A stretch of DNA of 64,000 nt. Origin: Thermosulfuriphilus ammonigenes (GTDB lineage: Bacteria; Desulfobacterota; Thermodesulfobacteria; Thermodesulfobacteriales; ST65). Below the pieces are notes generated by a model. That model saw only the letters and a program-made list of their open reading frames with translations. It did not search any database and had not been told where the DNA came from. Below are positions 1,657 to 41,555 of the stretch, piece after piece (the stretch's first letter is position 1; each line of letters starts with the position of its first letter). Location: positions 240,576 through 304,575 of the forward strand of contig NZ_CP048877.1 in the NCBI RefSeq assembly GCF_011207455.1, in the 5' to 3' direction. The translations under genes were made by a program, and so were the position numbers.

Positions 1657-1846
1657 CTCTTACGAGAAGCTAAAGGAACATCTTAGCTTGTCAAGTTTTT
1701 CACTTACCAAAAATAGTTATCTTTTTCACACTTCATATTGGCATTTTCGATAGCCTTTATTAGTTTTTTAAATTAAAAATTATCTTGTTAACTAAATGTG
1801 GTTTTGCTAAGTTTTGCCTAAATAAATTTTATAAGGAGGTCTTTTT

Positions 1847-3049
1847 ATGAGGAGGTCGTTTCTTTTCGCCCTTATCTTTTTGTTATGGGCTAGTCCTGGT
1901 TTTTCAAAGTTAACCTTTCCCAACAAACCTATCGATGATTTCGAAACTTTTGTTAAAACCTATGACTCCAAACGTTGCATGGAGTGCCATGAAGACATTT
2001 ACAACGAGTGGAAGGAGTCTTTCCACTCCCGGTCCATGGTTTCCTCCATCAAGGGAATAGCCAATTTCTTCACCGTCGGTGTCCCCAAGGAGTGGGAAAA
2101 GCCCCTTAATAAGCAGGAAATTCTCAAGTGTCTTGATTGTCACCTGCCCCAGATCAAATACGCTACCGAACGTCTGGCCTTAGAGATTGCCGGCTACATG
2201 ATTGACGCCAAAACGGCCAAGGGGGCCAAGAAGGAGAAGGCCATTGCCAAACTGAAGCAGCTCAACATCACCTGCTATGGCTGCCATAACATCAAGGCTG
2301 CCGGTACCGCCCCCGGGATCACCGGTCATATCGACCCCAATATTATTTTTACCGGTGGTGAGGGTGATTCTGACGCCCACGAGACCGAACATGCCCCCAT
2401 CTTTAAGCGGTCCTTTTTCTGCACTCAGTGTCACGGCGTCTATATCTCTCCCGATGGTGAGAGCACTATGTGCAACACCCTCTCCGGTAGTTATGTTCAC
2501 AACTATATTGGTCAGGGAGGTCGTGAGACCTGTCAGGACTGCCACATGAAGAAGAAAAATCGTGGCCACCGGATGCCCGGAGGACACGATCTAGAGATCG
2601 TTAAAGAGGGTATCGAGTTCCAGGCGGAGATAAAGGGTTTTCGTTACGGAATCGGTAAGTGGATTCCGGCGGGCAACGTGGAGGTCTTTTTGACCAACAA
2701 GGCCGGCCATCGCATCCCCGATGGGTGACTGTGGTCTGGCAAGGTGGTCCTGGAAGTGACCGCCAAAGATACCAAGACCGGTAAGATCCTCTACAAAGAC
2801 GAGAGAAAATACTTCGAGATCGGGCTCGACCTTGATGGTTACATGCGGTACGGAGCCTGGCAGATCAAAGAAATTGTTGATCTCACCCTCCAGCCCTTAA
2901 AGACCCAGCACGAGCGCTTCTTCTTTGTCCTGAACAAGGGCGTGGAAGAGGCCGAGGTCACCGTCAACGTTTACTACTACATAAGCGGGAAAAAGGGTGA
3001 CCTCATCTACCAAAAGAAAAAGATCCTAAGCTACAAAGAGCCCGAATAA
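1847..3049 (+). CDS. Five-haem c-type cytochrome with in-frame TGA at codon 294 (candidate selenoprotein or nonsense pseudogene)
   Basis: A strong AAGGAGG site precedes the ATG, and residues 1-20 form a signal peptide, so the protein is exported. Five CxxCH haem sites are visible: CMECH, CLDCH, CYGCH, CTQCH and CQDCH. The frame is open for 293 codons, meets TGA at 2726-2728 right after AGHRIPDG, and stays open in the same frame for 106 more codons to TAA at 3049. The downstream part (VVLEVTAKDTKTGK, then a long beta-rich stretch) looks like the rest of one C-terminal domain, not a new gene: it has no ribosome binding site or good start. A SECIS-like hairpin lies at 2743-2764. Options are selenocysteine at position 294, a recent nonsense mutation, or a sequencing error. 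Periplasmic or extracellular electron transfer is the likely role. A strong terminator follows. Confidence 0.75.
2743..2764 (+). promoter_or_regulatory. SECIS-like hairpin downstream of the in-frame TGA
   Basis: A 7 bp stem (2743-2749 with 2758-2764, one G-U pair) closes an 8 nt loop, CTGGAAGT. The loop GG pair lies 24-25 nt after the TGA, inside the spacing known for bacterial SECIS elements. An extra C-G pair with a bulged U would shrink the loop to TGGAA. GC-rich coding DNA often forms such hairpins, so this is suggestive only. Confidence 0.4.
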
Positions 3050-3065: not shown

Positions 3066-3098
3066 GAAAGGGGGGGCATTGGCCCCCCTTTCTTTTTT
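3066..3098. terminator. Bidirectional terminator between cytochrome and histidine kinase genes
   Basis: A 10 bp stem (GAAAGGGGGG paired with CCCCCCTTTC) is followed by TTTTTT on the plus strand. The minus-strand side is also U-rich. It sits between two convergent genes, so it probably ends both transcripts. Confidence 0.85.
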
Positions 3099-3110
3099 CA
3101 GGGCAAAGCC

Positions 3111-5607: not shown

Positions 5608-8600
5608 TTATTTGAACTTAAACCGTTTCCAGACAAAGTAAACGGCCGGAAGAATAACCAGGGTAAGGATAGTAGAAGAGATCAGCCCTCCGACCATCGG
5701 AGCAGCAATACGTTTCATTACCCGGGTGCCAGTCTCGGTGCCAAACATAATGGGCAAAAGACCAATGGTAGTGGTGGAGACAGTCATCAGCTTGGGACGG
5801 ACTCTTTCCACCGCCCCCTCAATGACCACTTCCTTAAGATCGGCAATTCCTTTAAGAAGCCCTTTTTCCCGGCGTCTTTCATAGGCCTCATCCAGATAGA
5901 CAAGCATAACCACACCGGTTTCCGCAGCCAGACCGGCCAGGGCGATAAAGCCCGCGGCTACCGCTACCGAAAGATTGTAACCCGCCAGCCAAAGTAGCCA
6001 GACACCACCTACCAGGGCAAAGGGAAGGGCCAGCAGGACGATCATGGTCTCGGTCAGGTTCCGGAAGTGGATAAAGAGAAGGACAAAAATGATGGCCAAG
6101 GTTATGGGGATAACAATAGCCAGTTTGGAGCGAACCCTCTCCATGTATTCATACTGCCCGGACCAGACCATGGAGACTCCAGAGGGGAGCTTGATGTTTT
6201 CGGCTACCAATTTTTTGGCCCGAGCCACAAATCCGCCGATATCTGAGGTCTTAAGGTCAACATATATCCAGGCCGTCCGGCGAGCATTTTCACTCTTTAT
6301 GGCTGGAGGGCCTTTAACTACCTTGATATCTGCCACCTCTCCCAAAGGGACCGTAAAGCCCAGGGGAGTAGGCACGGCAAGCTCACGCAATTTATCAAGA
6401 TTATCTCTTAACTCTCGCGGGTAACGAACATTTACTGGATATCTTTCTAGGCCTTCCACCGTCCAGGTGACGTTCATTCCCCCCAGGGCACTGCGGATAA
6501 CCTCCTGAATATCGGCTACCGAAAGGCCAAATCTGGCCGCCTCCTCCCGACGGATATCGATATCGATGTAATTACCTCCCACTACCCGTTCAGAATATAC
6601 TGAAGAGACCTCGGGCATCTGCCGCAAAAGGGCCTCTATCTCCTGGCCCACCTGAGAGAGCTTGGTCAGATCGTCTCCAAGAAGCTTTATCCCCACCGGG
6701 GTCTTGATACCTGTGGCCAGCATATCGATCCGGGTCTTGATAGGCATTGTCCAGGCGTTGGTTAGCCCGGGAAACTGAACCATCTCATCAAGCTCTCTGA
6801 TTATATCCTCAATGGTTTTGCCCTCAGGCCACTCCTCTTGAGGCTTAAGGATGATGGTTGTCTCGATCATGGAAAGGGGAGCCGGATCGGTAGCCGTTTC
6901 GGCCCGGCCTATCTTACCCCAGACATGGGCCACCTGGGGATGGGAGGCAATAATCTTGTCGGTTTGCTGAAGGAGTTCCCGGGCCTTGGTGATACTTATC
7001 CCTGGCGGAGTGGTGGGCATGTAAAGGAGATCTCCCTCGTTAAGGGGGGGCATAAACTCCGAACCCAGGCGCTGATAAGGGAACCAGGTGATCACGAGAA
7101 TTATAACGGCCACGGCAATGGTCAGCCAGGGGAAGCGAAGCACGGCCCTTATTATCGGCCGATAAAGACCGATAAAAAGCCGGCTTAAGGGATTCTTTTT
7201 CTCCGATATGACCTTCCCCCGAACAAAATAATACATAAGTACCGGAACCACGGTTACCGCCAAGACAGAGGAGGCGGCCATGGCAAATGTTTTAGTAAAG
7301 GCCAGGGGTCTAAAGAGACGCCCCTCCTGCTGTTCCAGAAAAAAGATGGGAAAGAAGCTGATGGTGATGATCAAAAGGGAGAAGAACAAAGCCGGGCCCA
7401 CCTCCTGGGTGGCCTTAAGGACCAGATCAAAATGACTGGCCCCGGGTTCCCGCTCCCGATACTTATGAAGATTTTCCACCATCACCACGGAGGCATCCAC
7501 CATGACCCCAATGGCAATGGCGATTCCTCCGAGGCTCATAATGTTGGCGTTTATTCCCAGAATATACATGAGCAAAAAGCTAATGAGGATCCCCGCCGGC
7601 AGGGTAAATACGGCCACCAGGGCCGAAGGGAGATGTAGAAGAAAGACGGCACAGATGATGGCCACAACGATAATTTCCTCGGTGAGTTTGCTTTTCAGGG
7701 TGTCTATGGCCCGATAAATAAGCCCGGAACGATCGTAGGAGACCTGGATCTTTACCCCTTCAGGGAGCCCGGCCTTGAGTTCCTCCAGCCGGGCCTTGAC
7801 CCGCTTGATAACCTCAAGGGCATTTTCCCCGTAGCGGATCACCACGATACCAGAGACAGCCTCTCCCTTGCCGTCGATGTCAATAACCCCCCGCCTGATC
7901 TCCGGCCCCAGGTGTATCTGGGCCACCTGGGAGAGGAAGATCGGGGTGTTGCTCTGGGGATCAATTCCCACGGGTATCTTTTTAAGATCGTCCAAAGAGC
8001 GGATATAGCCCTTCCCCCGAACCATAAACTCCGTCTCTCCCATCTCCAGGAGCCGGCCTCCGACATCCAGATTGGCCCGACGAATAGCCTGATTTACCTG
8101 GCTCAGGGTGAGGCCAAAGACGCGAAGTTTTTCGGGGTCTATCTCTACCTGATACTGCTTGATATAGCCGCCAGCACTGGCCACCTCCGCCACTCCCGGC
8201 AGGCTCATCAGCTCATAGCGAAGATACCAGTCTTGAATGGAGCGAAGCTGGGCCAGGTCGTGGCGATCTGAAGTCAGGGTATAGATGAACACCCAGCCCA
8301 CCCCTGTGGCATCAGGGCCCAGCTGGGGAGAGACTCCAGGGGGAAGCTTTCCCTTGACAAAGTTAAGGTATTCCAACACCCGAGAGCGGGCCCAGTAGAG
8401 ATCTGTGCCGTCCTCAAAGATCACATAGACCAAGGAAAAACCAAAAAAGGAATAGCCCCTAACATTTTTGGCATAGGGCACCGAGAGCATAGCCGTGGTC
8501 AAAGGGTAGGTAACCTGGTCTTCCACCACCTGGGGGGCCTGCCCGGGATACTCGGTATAGATGATCACCTGGACATCGGAAAGGTCAGGAATAGCATCCA

Positions 8601-40802: not shown

Positions 40803-41555
40803 TCAACGATAGTTTTGGTGTCCCTGGGGCCAGTTAACCCCCCAGGGTATAGATTCGTCTGGATAGTAGCGACACGGTCTCCCCCGACTGAGGAAGAAAC
40901 GATAAAGGATAACTCCGGCCACGAACCCTCCGACATGGGCCCACCAGGCGATTCCTCCGTGGGCGGCCGGCAAGGCCAGACTCAGGGTGCCACTGGTAAG
41001 CTGGATGAGGAACCAGAGACCCAGATAAAGGATGGCCGGAAGTTCAAAGAAGAAGGGAAAGAAAAATATAGGAATCATAACAATTATGCGGGCCAGGGGG
41101 AAAAGGGCATAGTAGGCCCCCATGACGCCAGATATAGCCCCCGAGGCTCCGATAGTGGGAACAGTAGAATGAGGGTTTAAAAGCACGTGGACCACCCCGG
41201 CAGCCAGGCCGCAGAGGAGATAGAAGATCAGAAAACGCCAGGGCCCCATCTGATCTTCGACGTTGTCGCCGAAGATCCAGAGTGTCCACATATTGCCAAT
41301 GAAGTGGACCCAGCTTCCGTGAAGAAACATGGAGGTAAGAAAGGGCCAGTAGTCATCCATGGCCAGCCCAAACCAAACGGCCCAGTCAGGGTGGGTATAG
41401 CGGGCCGGGACTATACCAAACAGGTAGAAAAAATGCTCCAGACTCTCCCTGGGGAGACTGAGCTCGTAGAGAAAGACCAGGGTGTTAAGACCAATAAGGC
41501 CCCAGGTAACAAGAGGGGGACACCTTCTGGGAATGCTGTCCTGAATAGGTATCAT
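40803..41555 (-). CDS. Rhomboid-family intramembrane serine protease
   Basis: A 250-residue protein with six or more membrane segments. The catalytic Ser lies in GASGAISGVMGAY, the His in WWAHVGGFVAG, and the oxyanion HxxxN in FLHGSWVHFIGNMW. Start MIPIQDSIP at 41555 matches the family; a TTG at 41591 in frame would be an alternative, four bases from the upstream stop. It cleaves membrane proteins within the bilayer. Its neighbours (ClpP-like protease downstream, HAD protein upstream) suggest an operon. Confidence 0.88.
   Translation of the reverse strand: MIPIQDSIPRRCPPLVTWGLIGLNTLVFLYELSLPRESLEHFFYLFGIVPARYTHPDWAVWFGLAMDDYWPFLTSMFLHGSWVHFIGNMWTLWIFGDNVEDQMGPWRFLIFYLLCGLAAGVVHVLLNPHSTVPTIGASGAISGVMGAYYALFPLARIIVMIPIFFFPFFFELPAILYLGLWFLIQLTSGTLSLALPAAHGGIAWWAHVGGFVAGVILYRFFLSRGRPCRYYPDESIPWGVNWPQGHQNYR

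Follow-up and report, generated by a model that had tools for sequence, protein, structure and literature searches.

Selenocysteine-containing multihaem cytochromes of the ExtKL family were first predicted in 2007 from Geobacter GSU2937 and GSU2936. No SECIS element was found in that study, the family was viewed as lacking homologues without selenocysteine (Sec), and a conserved operon was left possible, given the missing SECIS (PMC1914089). Two later papers present ExtKL as a putative selenocysteine cytochrome (PMC5877670, PMC6148476), and a 2026 review includes it in its selenoproteome list (PMC13188914). For Geobacter ExtKL the literature points to electron transfer related to Fe(III) or to the reduction of selenite; selenite reduction is a preliminary result only, and the abundance of the protein is higher with Fe(III) (PMC5877670). 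Structures of a homologue, among them that of a U325A mutant, are available as PDB entries 9WT8-9WTC under the name 'Multiheme cytochrome c selenoprotein (MccSep)'. The presence of Sec in this protein is known here from the PDB names and the sequence.

The stretch analysed here, 64,000 nucleotides from Thermosulfuriphilus ammonigenes (hereafter the window), carries a gene of this kind near its left end. A preliminary description, made from the letters alone, had proposed a five-haem cytochrome c with a selenocysteine at codon 294. Translation gave 293 residues, a single TGA, 106 further residues and a TAA, which confirmed the 400-codon frame with one in-frame TGA as well as the five claimed CxxCH sites. 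The N-terminus also resembles a signal peptide by eye, as had been claimed. The gene is followed by an intrinsic terminator and is thus probably monocistronic. Its neighbours encode a zinc-ribbon protein, a hypothetical protein, a two-component pair and an RND pump. Neither extHIJ nor extMN lies beside it, and there is no extHIJKL(MNOPQS)-type cluster with porin and rhodanese. The features of the locus are collected in the table.

Table. Features of the selenocytochrome locus, in positions of the window.
Feature	Position	Strand	Basis
Ribosome binding site AAGGAGG, just before ATG 1847	1834..1840 (approximate)	+	Direct sequence reading
extKL-type gene, pentahaem c-type cytochrome selenoprotein	1847..3049	+	400 codons with one in-frame UGA, plus TAA stop; NF040886, 449.5 bits, E 8.9e-135
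Probable signal peptide, about residues 1-20, MRRSFLFALIFLLWASPGFS	1847..1906	+	Translation judged by eye
Pentahaem domain, five CxxCH	1976..2545	+	Motifs at residues 44, 95, 143, 192 and 229; invariant in 42 family members
C-terminal beta-sandwich domain bearing the Sec loop	2612..3046	+	AlphaFold2 model, mean pLDDT 84.5; strands within 256-395
UGA codon, almost certainly decoded as selenocysteine 294, in the motif AGHRIPDGU	2726..2728	+	Codon conserved in relatives; aligned to U325 of PDB 9WT8/9WT9
SECIS-type hairpin, stem GGUGGUC/GACCGCC, apical loop CUGGAAGU	2743..2764	+	About 18-39 nt counted from the U of UGA
Intrinsic terminator, AAAGGGGGGGC-AUUG-GCCCCCCUUU, then U run	3069..3099	+	Direct sequence reading; hairpin also in Rfam-scan alignments

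The read-through protein matches the NCBIfam profile NF040886, 'multiheme c-type cytochrome (seleno)protein ExtKL', with the score given in the table against a curated equivalog cut-off of 250 bits, and the alignment spans profile positions 9-418 of 423. Searched by itself, the tail after the TGA scores 81 bits against the final part of this profile. NF040886 was likewise matched by all 42 aligned relatives. The Sec-or-Cys position that follows GHxxPDG in the C-terminal domain is present, as the TGA at codon 294. Judged by its sequence, the gene is a member of the recognised selenoprotein family ExtKL/MccSep and no new kind. The novelty that the preliminary description had implied for selenocysteine in a multihaem cytochrome therefore falls away, as this family was already known.

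The genome (2.29 Mb, one contig) was examined for the selenocysteine machinery, and all four of selA, selB, selC and selD are present. Matches to selA (633 bits) and selB (393 bits) lie above cut-off, selC was found as a tRNA-Sec with anticodon UCA (tca), and selD has an in-frame TGA of its own in the motif RASGU. The selD gene (L018 1492-2523, minus strand; G000:C1:748881-749804) is itself a selenoprotein gene and serves as an internal positive control.

An interrupted frame is weak evidence when taken alone, since three TGAs within the window have open stretches of at least 200 codons to their left and at least 90 to their right, through chance or at gene boundaries. The split frame at 8269 (plus strand) was rejected as antisense to an RND-pump gene, and the one at 40803 (minus strand) as the normal end of a rhomboid-like gene that is followed by another gene. 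What sets the TGA of codon 294 apart, from the sequences compared, is the conservation in relatives of both the TGA and the sequence that follows it. A homologue search whose scan patterns excluded the Sec site returned 62 loci, 60 of them covering the site. The codon equivalent to 294 is TGA in 59 of these 60 readable loci and TGC in one, and the loci with TGA span Thermodesulfobacteriota, Nitrospirota and others. Among 395 genomes drawn from the phylum, 41 gave a total of 51 matches, 44 of them with one TGA; in 27 of the loci, read individually, it lies in the motif GHxxPDGU.

At the Sec site, cysteine is found in five distinct genes (L076, L125, the second copy of L126, L128 and L129), and the source genomes of L128 and L129, which are of the same order, each also have a TGA copy. 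Aliphatic residues occur in two degenerate PDS-type paralogues, valine in L127 and isoleucine in the first copy of L126. None of the relatives examined has tryptophan, arginine or glutamine at this position. Two loci carry additional interruptions: the Cys-form copy L129 (minus strand) has an in-frame TAA between its first and second CxxCH and is either a pseudogene or an assembly error, and L049 has an in-frame TAG about 22 codons before its Sec codon (around nt 1007-1009), probably a sequencing error or a sign of a decaying copy.

In the AlphaFold2 model, built from 42 relatives, the haem domain is helical and precedes a beta-sandwich; residue 294 is placed in a loop between strands 273-284 and 299-308. 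MccSep aligns to residues 34-361 of the window protein (E 4e-54). In this alignment residue 294 falls on the selenocysteine of MccSep (X in the record) and on the alanine of the U325A mutant. MccSep belongs to the PTPNR-type subgroup and the window protein to the LWSGK type, the names referring to the residues after the selenocysteine. A fold search gave a sole convincing relative, the pentahaem cytochrome c552 of Thermochromatium tepidum (5ZE8; E 1.4e-15, TM 0.60). It is the best fold match in the library searched, its sequence match is weak and, unlike the window protein, it has no selenoprotein annotation.

We put at roughly 0.97 the probability that the window holds an ExtKL/MccSep selenoprotein gene for an exported pentahaem cytochrome, in which UGA 294 is decoded as selenocysteine via the downstream hairpin. 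The preliminary assignment of residue 294 as selenocysteine is supported by the sel genes, the TGA or Cys codons of relatives, the SECIS-type hairpin and the homologue structures. The cytochrome is probably exported and periplasmic, and its five haems would be attached after export. SelB and tRNA-Sec would decode the UGA, directed by the hairpin that lies downstream of it inside the coding sequence. The selenocysteine would then sit in the conserved loop AGHxxPDGU of the C-terminal beta-sandwich domain, adjoining the five-haem domain. The haems most likely act as an electron wire and the selenolate as the reactive centre, which would exchange electrons with the haem chain and reduce a substrate or partner. 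The computations showed that the gene belongs to the family, that the genome has the Sec machinery, that the codon is conserved, that the hairpin is under constraint and that Cys forms exist; catalysis by the selenocysteine is what we infer.

This catalytic step has a competitor that leaves Sec insertion untouched. The full-length selenoprotein could be a mere electron carrier, with the selenocysteine playing a structural or haem-tuning part, as might be suspected from the invariance of all five haem sites and from a fold relative, cytochrome c552, that is not named as a selenoprotein. We consider such a role rather unlikely, because a costly selenocysteine that is nearly universal in the family, with cysteine as its main substitute, points to redox or nucleophilic chemistry.

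The sequence after the UGA, CUGUGGUCUGGCAAGGUGGUCCUGGAAGUGACCGCC, folds into the SECIS-type element listed in the table, and across relatives a stem of 5-6 bp and a G in the apical loop are conserved. All five inner stem pairs (positions 20-37 to 24-33) are retained in 59 of 61 Sec genes, and loop G27 and G31 are invariant among the 61. The five Cys genes keep 1, 2, 2, 2 and 4 of these five pairs. Identity to the hairpin consensus has a median of 19/20 in Sec genes versus 10-14/20 in the Cys genes. Synonymous-codon conservation peaks over codons 298-305, where the mean excess across eight codons is higher than anywhere else in the gene (0.56 versus 0.07 gene-wide), among proteins that are just 31-81% identical; Val300, Leu302 and Glu303 each use one single codon wherever the residue is retained. 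Sliding the stem partners lowers pairing from 93.8% to at most 64%.

The shuffle control that counts stem pairs changed on both sides is weak (29 of 500) because the element hardly varies, and covariation is limited for the same reason. The folding energy against shuffles (z -1.27) is unremarkable alone. Rfam SECIS_1 matched neither here nor in any of the control genomes and is hence uninformative, and the Rfam scan of the locus returned sub-threshold matches only, mostly at the terminator. The link between selenocysteine and hairpin, kept in Sec genes and mostly lost in Cys genes, is the strongest evidence that the sequences offer for UGA decoding.

These data also bear on the proposal that ExtK, the pentahaem part, and ExtL, the C-terminal domain, are two proteins made from a conserved operon or by a restart, with the UGA a true stop. 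The older Geobacter annotation does split the gene, the 2007 paper, having found no SECIS, still allowed for a conserved operon (PMC1914089), and a GTG at 2744, the sole downstream restart in the open-reading-frame list, could start a 101-aa product. However, inspection of the sequence before this GTG showed no obvious ribosome binding site, in agreement with the earlier remark that no good start follows the TGA. The conserved loop AGHxxPDGU spans the codon, uninterrupted Cys homologues exist, the hairpin is conserved at SECIS distance and mostly lost in Cys forms, and in the solved structure the homologue is one chain that contains selenocysteine. Separate proteins are accordingly very improbable. 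A nonsense mutation or sequencing error truncating the cytochrome at residue 293, which the preliminary description had named as the main rival and for which a lone stop in an otherwise intact frame would speak, is effectively excluded by the near-universal TGA at the same codon in Thermodesulfobacteriota, Nitrospirota and other relatives, by the TGA of a second gene in the same genome and by the fit of the post-TGA frame to the family model. The UGA of the window gene is almost certainly read as selenocysteine.

The G. sulfurreducens ExtKL (GSU2937-2936) and the window protein share five haem sites, export, a C-terminal domain and a UGA between the two parts. They differ after the selenocysteine, with LWSGK in the window protein versus PTPNR in Geobacter-type members, and in context, as the window gene stands alone and Geobacter ExtKL lies within extHIJKLMNOPQS. 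Cable-bacterium homologues are likewise found outside an ext cluster; the cluster with porin and rhodanese is a Geobacter trait and no part of the NF040886 family definition. With neither extHIJ nor extMN next to the window gene, function is not simply transferable from Geobacter, and the substrate may differ.

A second ExtKL selenoprotein gene lies about 1.5 Mb away in the same genome (L084 1468-2784; G000:C1:1755392-1756651; 581 bits). It is of the PTPNR subtype, with the motif AGHAIPDGUPTPNR; its frame is likewise interrupted by a single TGA, and the SECIS-type sequence is the same as in the window gene. This genome further encodes a distantly related multihaem cytochrome that lacks selenocysteine (L090 5023-6366, minus strand) and has GKAGHMVPSGSS at the corresponding motif. 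The LWSGK subtype often occurs beside PTPNR in one genome. Tentatively, it may be a selenocytochrome with a function of its own; in thermophilic sulfur bacteria it could, for example, reduce a sulfur or selenium compound in the periplasm and work without ExtHIJ outer-membrane partners. We regard this as possible, if doubtful.

The SECIS evidence with its Cys-form controls goes beyond the 2007 paper (PMC1914089), and the second ExtKL selenoprotein gene in this genome is a further modest addition. Natural Cys homologues with a mostly decayed hairpin support, in silico, a SECIS role for the element. Ordinary gene calling cuts such selenocytochrome genes short. The window gene adds confirmation that exported multihaem cytochromes encode selenocysteine.
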